A stretch of DNA of 64,000 nt from Emcibacteraceae bacterium (lineage in GTDB: Bacteria; Pseudomonadota; Alphaproteobacteria; Sphingomonadales; Emcibacteraceae), in the NCBI GenBank assembly GCA_021774795.1, contig JAJFIR010000053.1, positions 248,001 to 312,000 of the forward strand, given 5' to 3'. The translations under genes were made by a program, and so were the position numbers. Of the stretch, positions 22,672-39,990 are shown in pieces. How positions within the stretch are numbered: position 1 is the stretch's first letter; each line of letters starts with the position of its first letter. The notes below the pieces were generated by a model, which made no database searches, had not been told where the DNA came from, and saw only the letters and a program-made list of their open reading frames with translations.

Positions 22672-24765
<2,094 letters not shown>

Positions 24766-24833
24766 TTTAGATATGCATAAATTGCATAGCTGGGTGGAGA
24801 AAATACCCTCTACTCATTCGTTATGAGAATAGT

Positions 24834-24866
24834 TATTATCCTTTCAACAGAAGATGAATAGCATCT
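24834..24866 (+). promoter_or_regulatory. -10 element and leader hairpin of the first FMDLL gene
   Basis: TATTAT at 24834-24839 is a good -10 element with only a weak -35 upstream (TACTCA). Thirteen bases on lies AGATG-AATAG-CATCT (24852-24866), a five-base-pair hairpin near the expected 5' end of the mRNA. The second copy of the unit has the same stem, AGATG/CATCT, at the same distance from its own -10. The conserved pair and differing loop argue for a structured leader. Confidence 0.45.
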
Positions 24867-24902
24867 TTTACGAATATTAATTCAGCAGAAAAGGATAGAT
24901 CA

Positions 24903-25157
24903 ATGACAAATATATTTAATACATATTGCTTCATGGACCTGTTGAAGGATTACAATTATGTACCTGAAGCAGATCGAAGTGAAACAGCAGTTTCCCAAGA
25001 TTTTACAAAACTAGTGACTTCATTTTCGAATTTTATCAAAAATAAAACCACCGATTATGATTTTATGGACCTTCTTGGTGATAATGGCTATGTGCCGGTT
25101 AATGATAACTGGGTAAAATCGAAATCTGACGACATTATCGTCGAAATAGCTTCTTGA
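24903..25157 (+). CDS. Small two-repeat protein, FMDLL...YVP motif, copy 1
   Basis: This 84-residue protein belongs to no family I recognise. It carries the same motif twice, [TD]Y-x-FMDLL-x-D-x-x-YVP: once at residues 8-21 (TYCFMDLLKDYNYV) and again at about 51-65 (DYDFMDLLGDNGYV). About 30 polar residues separate the copies, and the C terminus is short and acidic. There is no signal peptide, membrane segment, cysteine pair or catalytic motif. An AAGGA ribosome binding site precedes ATG 24903. A paralogue with matching layout follows 225 bases downstream. Coding is supported by the protein-level conservation between the copies despite silent differences. Confidence 0.75.
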   Translation: MTNIFNTYCFMDLLKDYNYVPEADRSETAVSQDFTKLVTSFSNFIKNKTTDYDFMDLLGDNGYVPVNDNWVKSKSDDIIVEIAS

Positions 25158-25171
25158 AATCTTATTATAAT

Positions 25172-25194
25172 GTGGCAGTATTTATTACTGCCAC
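25172..25194 (+). terminator. Hairpin after FMDLL copy 1
   Basis: Perfect nine-base stem GTGGCAGTA/TACTGCCAC with a five-base loop, 14 bases after the stop codon. No T run follows (TAAAATAATTT), so it is a weak terminator or an RNA-stabilising 3' hairpin. Copy 2 of the unit ends in a related GTGGTAGC/GCTACCAC stem. Confidence 0.5.
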
Positions 25195-25244
25195 TAAAAT
25201 AATTTCCCCATTTTCTTCACTATTTTTAACTAAAATATCCTAAA

Positions 25245-25273
25245 TTGCGACAAACTGAATTAATTTTGCGACA
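25245..25273. promoter_or_regulatory. Direct repeat TTGCGACA x2 upstream of FMDLL copy 2
   Basis: TTGCGACA occurs at 25245-25252 and again at 25266-25273. The period is 21 bases, two turns of the helix, so both lie on one DNA face. The second copy ends 17 bases before the predicted -35 element. This is a normal place for a dimeric activator such as a response regulator. Copy 1 of the unit has no such repeat. The protein that binds it is unknown. Confidence 0.5.
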
Positions 25274-25290
25274 GGGTACACTTGGCTCTA

Positions 25291-25319
25291 TTGTTTGTCT
25301 GGTAGGGGCGATCTATATT
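25291..25319 (+). promoter_or_regulatory. Predicted sigma-70-type promoter of FMDLL copy 2
   Basis: TTGTTT at 25291-25296 and TATATT at 25314-25319 are separated by exactly 17 bases, giving an expected start near 25326. This is just before the conserved leader hairpin at 25330 and 57 bases before the coding start. Confidence 0.55.
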
Positions 25320-25329
25320 TAATTCATAC

Positions 25330-25344
25330 AGATGATAAACATCT
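25330..25344 (+). promoter_or_regulatory. Leader hairpin of FMDLL copy 2
   Basis: AGATG-ATAAA-CATCT repeats the stem of the hairpin before copy 1 (24852-24866) with a different loop. Both are followed by a TTCA[AG]CAGA box and AAGGATAGATCAATGAC across the start codon. A hairpin at the very 5' end usually protects an mRNA; that role is an inference. Confidence 0.45.
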
Positions 25345-25382
25345 ATATTGAAAAATAGTTCAACAGATTTAAGGATAGATCA

Positions 25383-25643
25383 ATGACGAATATACTAAAC
25401 ACATATAACTTCATGGATCTGTTGAAGGATAACAATTATGTCCCTGAAACAGATAATGGTAGCAACAAATTAATGCAAGATATTGAAAGCTTATTTGATC
25501 AAATTTCAAATATCGTAACAAGCAAGGTTACCGATTATGATTTTATGGACCTACTTAATGACAAGGGTTATGTTCCTGCGGTGGAAAGCTGGATACCTGT
25601 AGCCAGCAATGACAATTCAGTTCTTTTGCAAGCAGCTTCATAA
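25383..25643 (+). CDS. Small two-repeat protein, FMDLL...YVP motif, copy 2
   Basis: This is an 86-residue paralogue of the protein encoded at 24903-25157. It has the same two motifs, TYNFMDLLKDNNYVP near residues 7-21 and DYDFMDLLNDKGYVP near 51-65, at the same spacing. The linker between them has diverged almost completely (DIESLFDQISNIV, a possible short amphipathic helix). The residues held constant between the two proteins, and between the halves of each, are the Phe-Met-Asp-Leu-Leu core, an Asp, and Tyr-Val-Pro. No function is known to me. It is acidic, cytoplasmic by prediction and transcribed from its own promoter. Confidence 0.75.
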   Translation: MTNILNTYNFMDLLKDNNYVPETDNGSNKLMQDIESLFDQISNIVTSKVTDYDFMDLLNDKGYVPAVESWIPVASNDNSVLLQAAS

Positions 25644-25651
25644 TAACTTTA

Positions 25652-25675
25652 AGTGGTAGCTTAAATGCTACCACT
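25652..25675 (+). terminator. Hairpin after FMDLL copy 2
   Basis: Perfect nine-base stem AGTGGTAGC/GCTACCACT with loop TTAAAT, eight bases after the stop codon and just before the convergent prmA end. It lacks a clear T tract. It is related to the hairpin closing copy 1. Confidence 0.5.
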
Positions 25676-25681
25676 GACTTC

Positions 25682-26617
25682 CTAAATTCCTTTAAGCACA
25701 AGCGTATGCCATTCATTGATGGAATATCGTTTTTTAAGTTTTAAGCCTTCTTTTTCATATGCTTCTAACACCATGCTTTCCTGGCTATCCAGAAGCCCCG
25801 ATAAAATTAACATTCCGTCATCACCCAGATTAGCCGCAATATCCGGTGCCAGATGTTTTAAAGGAAGTGCTAAAATATTAGCTATAATTAAATTATAAGG
25901 TCCCGTCTCGCCAATAACGGTGTTTTGAAATCCGTCGCATGTCAGCGTGGCGATACCATGTGCTTTGGTTTCGGGCGCAATCAGTTTGATATTATTTGTA
26001 ATAATATTGCCGTCGGCCGTTAATGTTGCGATGGGATCAATATCGCTAGCAATTACTCTGGTGTTCCACTGTTTGGCCGCAGCGATCGCCAAAACACCAC
26101 TTCCACACCCTAAATCAAGTATCAAATCTGGATTTTTGTTGAGCGGTAGATCACTCAGGGCAAGAAGACACCCTTTTGTCGTTTCGTGACTTCCTGTGCC
26201 AAAGGCCTGGCCTGCTTCCATCAATATGGAAATTTTATTCCTGGGAGCCGTTTCTTTGTCATGTGCGCCATATAAGTAAAATCTACCAGCATCAATAGGT
26301 TGAAGTAATTTTTGTGACGCAGCAACCCAATTTTCGTTGATTACTGCTTCGATGGTAATGTCAGGTACGGGCAGGTCAAAAATATTCGCAGCATTTTTTA
26401 CGCCGATTTTAATTTTTTCAAGATCAGGCTCTGTATCGAAATATACTTCAAGCAATCTATTTATTTTATCCCCTTCAATTTCAAAATTAGAGAGCGTCGG
26501 ATAATATTCATCGTTTATACTGATGAATATTTCTTCTAGGGCGGGGAGCATAACGACGGGTGATTTGACGCTTATTTTCCATGTGTGCGAGCTACCGTTA
26601 TTTTCGTTGTGGTTCAT
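25682..26617 (-). CDS. prmA: Ribosomal protein L11 methyltransferase PrmA
   Basis: PrmA trimethylates ribosomal protein L11. The 311-residue product has an N-terminal substrate-recognition domain and a C-terminal class I SAM-dependent methyltransferase with GQAFGTGSHETT, motif I LDLGCGSGVLAIAAAK and NPPY-like IANILALPL. The gene converges on FMDLL copy 2 and diverges from the DUF2807 genes. Its length is typical. Confidence 0.95.
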   Translation of the reverse strand: MNHNENNGSSHTWKISVKSPVVMLPALEEIFISINDEYYPTLSNFEIEGDKINRLLEVYFDTEPDLEKIKIGVKNAANIFDLPVPDITIEAVINENWVAASQKLLQPIDAGRFYLYGAHDKETAPRNKISILMEAGQAFGTGSHETTKGCLLALSDLPLNKNPDLILDLGCGSGVLAIAAAKQWNTRVIASDIDPIATLTADGNIITNNIKLIAPETKAHGIATLTCDGFQNTVIGETGPYNLIIANILALPLKHLAPDIAANLGDDGMLILSGLLDSQESMVLEAYEKEGLKLKKRYSINEWHTLVLKGI

Positions 26618-26786: not shown

Positions 26787-27452
26787 ATGGCAATCATTAT
26801 ATCAAAATTATCAAAAACTATACTATGCATATTTGCAGGTTTGTTGATTGCGATAAGCGTCACATATGCTGATGACCTTTCAGTGACACATGATTTAAAT
26901 GGTTTTGAGAAAATCCGTATTAATAATGTTGGTATAGAGCTTGAGGTAAAAGTAGGTGAAGCTTTTGAAATAATTGTAGATGGTCATGAAGTTAATGTGA
27001 AAAATCTTATGCTTGATGTAGAGGGCGATACTTTGGTTATTCATAGAAGGGACGGCAAAAGGACCTGGAACCGGCGCGGAAATTCACATCTGGAAATAGA
27101 GATCAAAATGCCGAAATTTAGAGGACTCGAATTGCGCGGTGCTGTGGACGCTGAAATAGAGGGCGTAGACAGCGATGTTGTTGAGTTCAACCTAAGAGGT
27201 GCGGGCCACATTGAAGTCGAAGGAAAATGTACGAAACTTAATGTTGCATTAAAAGGCGCGGGTAATTTTGAAGCAGAAGATTTGGAATGTGAGGAAGTTG
27301 ATGTTGAGTTGAATGGGGCTGGTAATATAGAAGTTTACGCCAGCAAAGAGATTAATGCCGAAATTAATGGCATCGGAAATATCGATGTGTTTGGCGATCC
27401 TGAAAAAGTAACAAAAGACGACGGATGGCTCAGTCATATTTCCGTACACTAA
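26787..27452 (+). CDS. Secreted DUF2807 (GIN domain) protein, paralogue 1
   Basis: This 221-residue protein has an N-terminal signal peptide (cleavage near Ala-Asp-Asp at about 28) and then a repeating beta-strand domain of the DUF2807 type. It opens with the usual FEKIRINNVGIELEVKVG module and runs through about five turns of an 18-21 residue repeat. In this copy the turns read GAGH/GAGN/GIGN rather than the GSGD of its two neighbours, and there are fewer of them. It is probably periplasmic or surface-exposed; the function of the family is not firmly known. It is the first gene of a three-gene set. Confidence 0.85.
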   Translation: MAIIISKLSKTILCIFAGLLIAISVTYADDLSVTHDLNGFEKIRINNVGIELEVKVGEAFEIIVDGHEVNVKNLMLDVEGDTLVIHRRDGKRTWNRRGNSHLEIEIKMPKFRGLELRGAVDAEIEGVDSDVVEFNLRGAGHIEVEGKCTKLNVALKGAGNFEAEDLECEEVDVELNGAGNIEVYASKEINAEINGIGNIDVFGDPEKVTKDDGWLSHISVH

Positions 27453-27492: not shown

Positions 27493-28275
27493 ATGAATAA
27501 ATTATTTAAAATTGCAGGGGTGTCCGTGGCCGCACTTTCAGCCGCACTTTATGCGTCTTCGATCACAAAGACAGTAGCACAAGATATTACGCAACAGTCT
27601 GATTTAGAAGGGTTCTCAAAAGTTAAGTTAAATTCTTCGTCTGATATCAAAATAGCAATGGGAAGTGATTATTCAATTGAATTAATCGGCGATGAAGAAC
27701 GCATTAGTAACACTATTCTCACATTGGAAGGCGACACATTAATTATCAAACATAAAAAAGGCCACCACAATTATGATGATGATCAGGAAATGATGATTTC
27801 TGTAGTGATGCCAGATATCGAACTTATGCAAATTAACGGTTCCGGTGACGGTGAAATAATCGGTGTTGATAACGCACATCTGGAGCTTAATATCAATGGC
27901 TCCGGTGATCTTGAAGTAACAGGTAAAAGTGAAGAACTTGACATAAGCATTAATGGATCCGGTGATGTTAGAATGGAAGAAGTATTGGGTAAAGATGTTG
28001 ATGTCTCTATAAACGGGTCGGGAAGTGTCGAACTTGCCGGTGGGTCCTGTAACGCTTTTGAAATAGATATACATGGATCTGGTGACGTAGAGGCCAGAGA
28101 TATGAAATGTGTTGACGTTGATGTAGAAGTCTCAGGATCAGGTGATAGCGAAGTTTATGCCAGTAATTCATTAACTTTTGACAGCCGCGGATCAGGTAAT
28201 GTTGACGTTTATGGTAAGCCTGGAACCATTATTGATAACGAATTAAGACGTAGAAGCAAGATCAGAATTAGGTAG
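27493..28275 (+). CDS. Secreted DUF2807 (GIN domain) protein, paralogue 2
   Basis: This 260-residue secreted protein has a signal peptide (roughly residues 1-30, ending near VAQD). A DUF2807 beta-helix-like domain follows with seven GSG[DSN] turns, each of the form [IV]xGSGDxx[VI]xG. A strong AAGGAGG ribosome binding site lies in the 40-base gap after paralogue 1. The C terminus is basic (RRRSKIRIR). The repetitive turns resemble right-handed parallel beta-helices that form stiff extracellular or periplasmic rods. Its role is unknown. Confidence 0.88.
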   Translation: MNKLFKIAGVSVAALSAALYASSITKTVAQDITQQSDLEGFSKVKLNSSSDIKIAMGSDYSIELIGDEERISNTILTLEGDTLIIKHKKGHHNYDDDQEMMISVVMPDIELMQINGSGDGEIIGVDNAHLELNINGSGDLEVTGKSEELDISINGSGDVRMEEVLGKDVDVSINGSGSVELAGGSCNAFEIDIHGSGDVEARDMKCVDVDVEVSGSGDSEVYASNSLTFDSRGSGNVDVYGKPGTIIDNELRRRSKIRIR

Positions 28276-28386: not shown

Positions 28387-29160
28387 ATGAGTAAGCTAAA
28401 CAACTATTTGAGTGCTTCATTCATATTTCTTAGCGCGATAGTATTAACGGAAGCTTCGGCTAGAGATATAACCAAAGATATTGATGTAATGAATTTTGAC
28501 GAAGTAACGTTAGATACACCGGCAAAGCTTCATATAACAATTGGTAAAGATTTTTCTGTCACTGCAAAAGGCGATGAGAACCGGATTGAAAATACCGAAT
28601 TTAATCGGTACGGAGACAGATTAGAAATCACGCGCAAGAAAAGATTTAGATTTTTTGGTAGAAATGATGACGGCCATTTAGATGTCTATATCACCATGCC
28701 GGATATTCGTGAAATGGTCATTGATGGGTCCGGAGATGCTTTTATTACCGGTGTTAATGGACACGACTTAGAGCTTAAGATCGACGGATCAGGAGATATA
28801 GAAGTAGAAGGTACAAGTGAAAAATTAGAAATCAATATAGACGGGTCGGGCGATATTGATTTAGAAGGGTTTTCCGGCAAACAAGTAAATGTAAATGTTG
28901 ATGGTTCTGGTGATGTCGATATAGAAGGCACCTGTGATAGACTTGAGATCGAAATTGATGCTTCGGGTGACGTTAAGGCGAAGAACCTTATCTGCAAAGA
29001 AGTCAACGTTATTATAGAAGGATCTGGTGATAGCTATGTCCATGCGATAGATACTTTTAGTTACGATAGCGACGGTTCGGGAAATGTAGATGTTTTTGGA
29101 AAGCCCAAAGAGGTTATCGATAATTCTCGTGATAGTAATACAAAAATCAGAGTGCGTTAA
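28387..29160 (+). CDS. Secreted DUF2807 (GIN domain) protein, paralogue 3
   Basis: This 257-residue product has a signal peptide ending near SARD (about residue 27) and seven turns of the DUF2807 repeat, mostly IDGSGD. It is closest in layout to paralogue 2, including the PKEVIDN...KIRVR-type end. The 111-base gap before it is long enough for a separate promoter, but I see no clear one. An AAGGAAG ribosome binding site precedes the ATG. It converges on the downstream helicase gene. Confidence 0.88.
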   Translation: MSKLNNYLSASFIFLSAIVLTEASARDITKDIDVMNFDEVTLDTPAKLHITIGKDFSVTAKGDENRIENTEFNRYGDRLEITRKKRFRFFGRNDDGHLDVYITMPDIREMVIDGSGDAFITGVNGHDLELKIDGSGDIEVEGTSEKLEINIDGSGDIDLEGFSGKQVNVNVDGSGDVDIEGTCDRLEIEIDASGDVKAKNLICKEVNVIIEGSGDSYVHAIDTFSYDSDGSGNVDVFGKPKEVIDNSRDSNTKIRVR

Positions 29161-39003: not shown

Positions 39004-39495
39004 TTATTTTTTGTTACGGAAAGCATCCAGAGCGACGATGTTGTCTTTTTCGACTGAGGGGGATTGTTCGGCTTTGTCAATTTTTTCAACCTTTAAGATT
39101 TCTTTTTCTTCAGGTTCAGAAATCTCAACCGTCGCTTCTGCATCAGCATTAAAGTGAAGGCCAAAATCGACACTCGGGTCAAAAAAACCAAGTAAGGCGT
39201 CAAATGGGATATAAAGATGTTCTTTATTTCGGTTAAAGCTCAAAGAAATTTCAAAATGTTTGTCATCGACTGATAAATCCCAGAACTGATTTTGTAGTAC
39301 TATAGTCATATCTTCTTCGTATCTTTCTTTTAGATACGTTGGAATCTGTACATCTGGATGATTGGTCTGGAAAGTAATATAAAAGTGGTGTTCGCCCTTT
39401 AGGCCGTTTTCAATAGTATCGAATAAGATGTCTCTAACGACACCAATGAGTGCTGTTTGGACCATTTCGTCATATTTTATAATGCCATCTGTCAT
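39004..39495 (-). CDS. sspB: SspB-alpha, ClpXP adaptor for tmRNA-tagged proteins
   Basis: This adaptor binds ssrA-tagged polypeptides and delivers them to ClpXP. The 163-residue product has the N-terminal substrate-binding domain ([51 protein letters not shown]) and a polar linker. It ends in a short conserved tail ([11 protein letters not shown]) that docks on ClpX. It lies downstream of the ssrA gene on the same strand, with a terminator between, so the tag RNA and its reader are neighbours. Confidence 0.93.
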
Positions 39496-39586
39496 TTTTA
39501 ATGTTACTTCTCGATTTTTAGCGACTCTAACTTTGTTAAACTATAACGCTAACTTACGTTTTGGGCTAGTTTTTTTCCAAAGTCAT

Positions 39587-39647
39587 AAAAAAACGCAGGT
39601 TAAGAAGTGGTAGGCTTCTGTTGCTAGGTGCCTACCGAACCCCGCGT
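39587..39647 (-). terminator. Terminator of ssrA
   Basis: On the minus strand an inner stem GGTAGGC/GCCTACC sits inside an outer stem formed by ACGCGGGGTT and AACCTGCGT, followed by T7 at 39593-39587. It ends the tmRNA precursor before sspB. Part of the inner stem may belong to the mature coding RNA. Confidence 0.75.
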
Positions 39648-39895
39648 AGCTAAACTATTAAGCTGCTACAGCAAATGCTTCATTATCGTTTGCATTTACA
39701 AAATTTGACCCGTTACAGCGGTGTCATGCTGAGCAAAAGTTATATCTTTATTGCGCACGTCGATCCTATTTCGCCCCCTAAAGTCCCATGATTTATCCGG
39801 GTTTAAGGTAATGGTGGAGGCGCCGGGTACCGCCCCCGGGTCCGTAACGTTTATTCCATATATCAGTTTATTGCCGTAGTCGGTTACCCGACTCG
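39609..39895 (-). ncRNA. ssrA: Two-piece (circularly permuted) tmRNA
   Basis: tmRNA rescues stalled ribosomes and adds a degradation tag. The order on the minus strand is permuted. The acceptor piece comes first (about 39895-39812), with a GTAA-capped stem, a T-arm stem CCGGG/CCCGG and the 3' end CGCCTCC-ACCA. About 33 spacer bases follow (39811-39779). The coding piece then starts with GGGGGCG at 39778. GGGGGCG pairs with CGCCTCC over seven pairs, including the G-U at position 3 required by alanyl-tRNA synthetase. The reading frame at 39693-39661 encodes ANDNEAFAVAA and then TAA TAG. The end coordinates of the pieces are approximate. Confidence 0.92.
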
Positions 39896-39990
39896 TTATA
39901 TATAAGTGCAAATGCTTAAAATTTAAATAGATTTGCGCAAATTTTTATGTAATTTATAGGAAGATAACAAAGTAAGCTAAATGGAATTTC

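Follow-up and report, generated by a model that had tools for sequence, protein, structure and literature searches.

The window, a stretch of 64,000 nucleotides from an Emcibacteraceae genome (contig JAJFIR010000053.1, positions 248,001 to 312,000), holds two small genes between ligA (22678-24765, + strand), their 5' neighbor, and prmA (25682-26617, - strand), their 3' neighbor. Both open reading frames (ORFs) are present where a sequence-only reading of this DNA had put them, and they lie on the same strand. Gene 1 (24903..25157, +) encodes P0001, a protein of 84 residues with two FMDLL...YVP motifs and a tail ending in ...SKSDDIIVEIAS, and gene 2 (25383..25643, +) encodes P0002, a protein of 86 residues with two such motifs and an ssrA-like tail, SNDNSVLLQAAS. 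The products are 54-55% identical when aligned, and each consists of internal repeats, which the sequence-only reading had not noticed: FMDLLKDxNYVP stands near the N-terminus, followed by a linker of about 30 residues and then by DYDFMDLLxDxGYVP. Some relatives contain a third motif. Among 42 ORFs from the bacterial family f1, counted by motif expression, two motifs were present in 30, three in nine and one in three. An AF2 model places short helices at both motifs and a helix in the linker, with low confidence (pLDDT 58). The neighbors of the gene pair include recN as well as ligA. The tandem arrangement is a local one; in the set of extracted members, the genome of the window (G000), G003 and G010 have pairs at the ligA/prmA site. 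Just past prmA, three consecutive proteins (26787-27452, 27493-28275 and 28387-29160, all +) carry repeated '..NGSGDVE..' segments and are presumably DUF2807-like; proteins of this type are also found 3' of prmA in many of the relatives shown.

The sequence-only reading could place neither protein in any family, and our searches agree: matches in Pfam, NCBIfam, PHROGs and PADLOC were weak and scattered over unrelated families. The strongest, TIGR04512, appeared in 4 of 28 members with a best E-value of 6.3e-4 and is read as chance, as is phrog_22015 (E 0.018). A profile search of the PDB returned five weak matches, the best (E 0.004) to the designed protein Maquette-3, and an origin from phages or plasmids was rejected, since viral contigs, plasmids and phages held nothing similar. 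A search of 60 relatives with a single sequence found matches in 35 at E<=1. A profile built from 28 members matched 35 of the 346 genomes of the order at E<=0.01, with members in 30 of the 32 listed f1 genomes, and the iterated profile reached 57 of the 346 (30 from f1, 24 from f5, two from f2 and one from f8). A class-wide profile search of 385 genomes gave, besides G000, one match (E 0.008) in a 630-codon frame, which we read as chance. The four matching contigs that carry a name are metagenome-assembled, three labelled Kordiimonadaceae and one Emcibacteraceae. Selection on the protein, likewise claimed earlier, is evident from pairwise dN/dS values of 0.08-0.30 among the 40 pairs listed, a range that describes other pairs, since the pair in the window falls below the identity limit of that listing.

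These results confirm both ORFs as genuine genes, belonging to a family for which no searched library offers a convincing name. That they are spurious or non-coding, as short frames with no known domain might be, is so improbable given the dN/dS range, the presence in 30 of 32 listed f1 genomes, the start box of their own and the conserved place that we dismiss it. The outcomes that had been named as counting against a new family, a match to a known one or an absence of conservation in relatives, were not found, and the same evidence upholds the proposal of an undescribed small-protein family. Full-text searches of open-access PMC (few subscription journals), some of them aimed at SspB- or ssrA-like clients and at these organisms, listed no paper on it, and the family is apparently undescribed.

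Its genomic place is conserved well beyond the window. For 37 f1 ORFs in searchable stretches, a count that leaves out five further ORFs in shorter stretches, ligA and prmA both lie within 2.5 kb in 23 cases, one of them in three and neither in 11; the last are dispersed copies or copies lying apart. At 27 loci from f2, f5 and f8, both genes are in the fetched stretch in 22 and at least one in 26, while the fetched stretches of G038 (f8) and G041 (f5) show prmA and uvrD only. Directly after ligA in 19 genomes of the order that had no profile match, a similar small ORF was seen in seven (G055 and G032 from f2, G034 from f4, and G037, G049, G054 and G058 from f7) and none in 12. These seven are tied to the family by place, motif and tail and not by profile score. 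Beyond the order, the region after ligA holds no such candidate at any of 29 loci sampled in the class. Given small ORFs at the ligA/prmA site across families of the order, this looks like one old locus with a fast-evolving product.

Each of the two genes has a start-region box, a leader hairpin and a closing hairpin. The start-region box proposed earlier, TTCArCAG...AAGGATAGATCAATG, held up: the pattern AAGGATAGATCAATGA, with at most one mismatch, occurs twice in G000, exactly at the two genes (gene 1, TTCAGCAGAAAAGGATAGATCAATG, 24881..24905, +; gene 2, TTCAACAGATTTAAGGATAGATCAATG, 25359..25385, +), and the backward control pattern has no match there. A shared leader hairpin was claimed as well (gene 1, 24849..24869, +; gene 2, AGATG-ATAAA-CATCT, 25330..25344, +). 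The AGATG-loop-CATCT hairpin covaries over 15 copies in the genus, with six of seven pairs changed on both sides, a score reached by none of 500 shuffles, and the gene 2 leader folds more stably than shuffles (z -2.8), but the gene 1 leader taken alone folds no better than they do (z -0.9). In line with the earlier claim there are closing hairpins too, and their stability far exceeds that of shuffles (gene 1, GTGGCAGTA-TTTAT-TACTGCCAC, 25172..25194, +, z -5.3; gene 2, AGTGGTAGC-TTAAAT-GCTACCACT, 25652..25675, +, z -5.8); a terminator scan called neither as a terminator, and Rfam gave no family at gathering scores at the locus. Upstream of gene 2 (25310-25381, +) a GATCTAT segment can pair with ATAGATC of the start box, closing the ribosome site (MFE -14.7, z -2.8), and pairing of this type is absent from the predicted fold of gene 1.

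Two kinds of promoter-like element were found. Gene 1 is preceded by CTCTACTCAT...TTATTAT (24808..24842, +), an element also present upstream of relatives in f1, f5 and f7. Its CTCTACT core occurs in 25 of 71 upstream regions, which are not independent of one another (shuffle mean 0.33, maximum 2), with an AT-rich box about 20 nt 3' of it. Within the window the element overlaps a terminator-like stem after ligA (24791-24816). The other copies printed do not preserve the partner arm of that stem, which makes a promoter the more likely interpretation of the element. A joint -35/-10 pattern and one longer CTCTACT form were found in none of the 71 regions; the short CTCTACT alone stood out clearly. 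The LexA box, GTTC-N7-GTTC, was absent in either orientation from all 71 upstream regions (up to 300 bases each), and SOS control of the genes was rejected on this ground. The second element, CTTG-N19-TATCT/TACGT, occurs in 6 of 43 f1 upstream regions (shuffle mean 0.24, maximum 3). All six belong to dispersed copies of genus g1 (L033 4252, L045, L048, L050, L057 and L069) and share a similar spacer, CGTAyyATr; dispersed copies in L054 and L058 stand outside the count, and the CTTG promoter was not found upstream of the genes in the window. Alphaproteobacterial RpoH promoters are given as CTTGAA-N15/16-CCTATAT and CTTGCC-N15/16-CCTATCT in the passages of PMC4843759 that concern them. By their sequence the elements of the dispersed copies would fit an RpoH-like promoter, being close to those quoted, which makes it plausible that these copies are under stress control.

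The chief new finding, absent from the sequence-only reading, concerns the C-terminus of the proteins. About 14 kb from the gene pair lie two adjoining genes: a permuted tmRNA gene (39567..39907, -) whose tag is ANDNEAFAVAA, and a gene for SspB (39004..39495, -; 163 residues; PF04386, E 6.2e-40), a homologue of the adaptor that recognizes the tmRNA tag. In the tag, NDN is followed by seven residues. Among 42 different f1 ORFs, 38 have an NDN with exactly seven (17 ORFs) or eight (21 ORFs) residues after it, and the same holds for five of six further members, missed by the motif expression and judged by eye, giving 43 of 48. An alanine occupies the last or next-to-last position in 41 of the 42 ORFs and in all six added members, hence in all but one of 48. 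P0002 has the NDN box near its C-terminus, and we propose its last 12 residues (25605..25640, +), on the strength of the family statistics, as SspB box and ClpX-contacting end. P0001 has NDNW further in, and is one of five f1 members that depart from the register, all of which keep the Ala-Ser end and have NDNW further in. The end dipeptides of the 42 ORFs are AS (18), VA (16), AA (3), AG (2), VS (1), AL (1) and AM (1); in the members printed the residue before AS is V, I, L, A, E or K, and a g3 member ends in SNDNDLNIKVA.

This layout is rare among other frames. In 1.2 Mb of G012, G034 and G015, taking every six-frame ORF of 50 or more codons, NDN lies 4-14 residues from the end in 8 of 5876; of these, just one also has alanine in the last or next-to-last position, and it is the G034 family member beside ligA, with the tail FANDNVTDEDNQAA. 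A greedy ORF caller (60 or more codons, same 1.2 Mb) gave NDN at that distance in 3 of 1148, none ending in A, and missed the G034 member, which was masked by an overlapping ORF. At other loci, none of 416 ORFs of 100 or more codons has NDN in the last 17 residues. The machinery co-occurs with the family: tmRNA was found in 30 of 32 genomes and SspB in 31 of 32, and all 28 tags obtained from 30 tmRNA loci begin with ANDN and close with AA. The C-terminus of f1 family members thus resembles the layout of the tmRNA tag. To our knowledge, no conserved chromosomal family carrying this layout, SspB box included, was known before.

Outside f1 the tail varies. The relatives listed from f2, f4, f7 and f8 end in AA. 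In G038, G045, G055, G034 and G032 (f2, f4 and f8), NDN lies 9-15 residues from the end, which is AA; G059 has NDD and an AA end, and the four f7 candidates have the AA end and no NDN. Because in the f2, f4 and f8 relatives NDN stays near the end while its distance to the last motif varies widely, it is tied to the C-terminus. In the wider family the ssrA-like tail is not a general feature, since none of 24 f5 relatives has NDN in its tail and His is the last residue in 19 of the 24, with FAH in 12 of these 19. The f5 relatives at the ligA-prmA site, such as L165, L168 and L177, have a conserved tail of the ...IVRP..GG..GGAFAH type, and some f5 relatives are without the second motif, while the first stays. 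According to passages of PMC11986505 and PMC10665427, Lon responds to a terminal His in proteins such as SulA and LarA. However, the f5 ends are mostly F/L/Y-A-H and not the x-L/I-L/I/V-H of the Lon paper, and with Ala before His the match is a loose one. The motifs persist while families differ in the type of tail, which suggests that selection acts on instability, perhaps with an exchangeable protease. Apparent selection for instability in turn favors a short-lived effector over an obligatory adaptor of SspB.

The sequence-only reading offered no mechanism, and the tail points to one. We consider it rather probable that the family members are short-lived effectors built of repeated motifs, with an encoded ssrA-like degron by which SspB and ClpXP remove them. 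This proposal starts from features present in the sequences themselves: the family and its selection, the synteny, the tail statistics, the co-occurrence of tmRNA and SspB, the start box and the leader hairpin. From these we infer degradation, a role for SspB, a partner and regulated expression. The protein would have a transcript of its own, which carries a structured leader. Its body would consist of two, in relatives up to three, short helical motifs (YxFMDLLxDxGYVP) joined by a longer helix, and the repeated helices would bind a putative partner. The tail would be a genome-encoded likeness of the ssrA tag, with an NDN box for SspB, then 7-8 residues and a hydrophobic-Ala or Ala-Ser end meant for the ClpX pore. 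Removal by SspB-assisted ClpXP would make the protein level track synthesis closely. Several observations speak against this proposal: P0001 and four other f1 members have no NDN near the end, the usual f1 end is AS or VA, the f5 relatives have other tails, NDN also stands after an inner motif in some three-motif proteins, and the structure model is poor.

Two known kinds of tag bear on this proposal. First, family tails share with the tmRNA tag, the substrate of SspB and ClpXP, the distance of NDN from the C-terminus and the alanine at the last or next-to-last position, in a genome that has both the ANDNEAFAVAA tag and SspB. They differ in that the gene itself encodes the tail, with no need of trans-translation to add it, and in that the tag ends in AA whereas most f1 proteins end in AS or VA. 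In E. coli, AANDENY is the SspB-binding part of the tag and ALAA the part that binds the ClpX pore, as stated in passages of PMC8512704. It speaks against the proposal that the E. coli tag has NDEN where this lineage has NDN, here taken as a putative SspB box. Secondly, the engineered DAS-type ssrA tags described in the same passages combine an SspB box, a short spacer and an ...AS end, as the family does, but the family is natural and conserved, has NDN in place of NDEN, and does not have D before AS. Tags ending in ADAS were degraded in vitro when SspB was present; in vivo trends were alike in E. coli wild type and in clpX and sspB mutants, which counts against the proposal (PMC8512704, same passages). 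By the E. coli model the f1 tails may count as SspB-assisted degrons whose ClpX end is moderate, and the AS ending, similar to the engineered tails, would make removal lean on SspB. By analogy the family would work most like a native C-degron substrate of ClpXP, LarA-like in its logic.

The alternative that survives best, possible though doubtful, is a stress protein similar to LarA or SulA whose instability is conserved and whose protease is exchangeable, being ClpXP in f1, f2, f4 and f8 and Lon in f5. It overlaps with the short-lived effector and does not exclude it. LarA, the 89-residue heat-shock activator of Lon in Caulobacter, has a functional C-terminal degron (PMC10665427, in the passages on LarA). 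Like it, the family consists of small alphaproteobacterial proteins with tail-driven logic, and the f5 relatives share its terminal His, 19 of 24 f5 tails ending in His like the Lon C-terminal His degrons in passages of PMC10665427 and PMC11986505. The six dispersed g1 copies with CTTG elements, close to RpoH promoters (PMC4843759, in the passages cited above), also favor this alternative. However, the degron of LarA is a hydrophobic C-terminus with His and 0 of 42 f1 ORFs end in His, the f5 ends depart from the Lon consensus as described above, PF06620 (DUF1150, the family of LarA) is not among the matches of family members, and the copies in the window have no CTTG promoter. PF06620 itself was found in G034 and G054 and not found in G000, G012, G014, G015 and G035, which cover f1 and f5. 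With SOS division inhibitors of the SulA type the family shares the idea of a C-terminal degron and a gene beside recN and ligA, but it has no LexA box in the 71 upstream regions and matches no known inhibitor family.

The remaining alternatives keep the resemblance to the tag and give it another purpose, or deny it one. A natural trans-adaptor, which would grip a target by its FMDLL motifs and bring it by its ssrA-like tail to SspB and ClpXP for destruction of the target, would suit the modular layout of repeated binding-type motif plus tail, and PMC12373786 describes plasmid-encoded degrader peptides that deliver GroEL to ClpXP in E. coli. We regard it as unlikely: in f5 the tail has been replaced by an ...AFAH-type end with the first motif kept, and therefore the tie to SspB is not fixed. 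It is similarly improbable that NDN and the alanine end belong to the fold of the protein or to a contact with its partner and resemble the tag by coincidence. NDN does also follow an inner motif in some three-motif proteins and might have a structural role there, many members of g1 have VNDNW after the second motif, and the 24 f5 tails have no NDN. Against coincidence stand the tag register kept in 43 of 48 f1 members, the position of NDN near the C-terminus in f2, f4 and f8 while its distance from the motifs changes, and the background of 5876 ORFs, whose only NDN-plus-Ala end belongs to a family member. Quite unlikely, to our mind, is a family of native degraders, in which the repeated motifs would catch a specific partner and the tag-like tail would hand it over to the disposal route of tmRNA-tagged proteins as a programmable regulator, the tail having passed from a ClpXP/SspB type to a Lon type in one branch. 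A competitor that occupies SspB and slows the removal of tmRNA-tagged proteins under some condition is very unlikely. The NDN layout is that of the tag, some members carry two NDN boxes, and SspB and tmRNA are encoded about 14 kb away in the window; an inhibitor, however, would be expected to lose the ClpX-contacting end, yet 41 of 42 ORFs keep Ala at the last or next-to-last position, and the repeated helices would be left unexplained.

In conclusion, the short-lived effector is the reading that we prefer, and the tails suggest that nature has made these regulators for a short life. If the tails work in that way, the family consists of natural proteins with the whole layout of the tmRNA tag, namely SspB box, spacer and ClpX end, and not a chance Ala-Ala. 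They would then form a native, dedicated set of clients for the alphaproteobacterial SspB and would link the disposal route of trans-translation to regulation, in a lineage where the type of degron, ssrA-like or terminal His, seems to have been exchanged while the motifs were kept.
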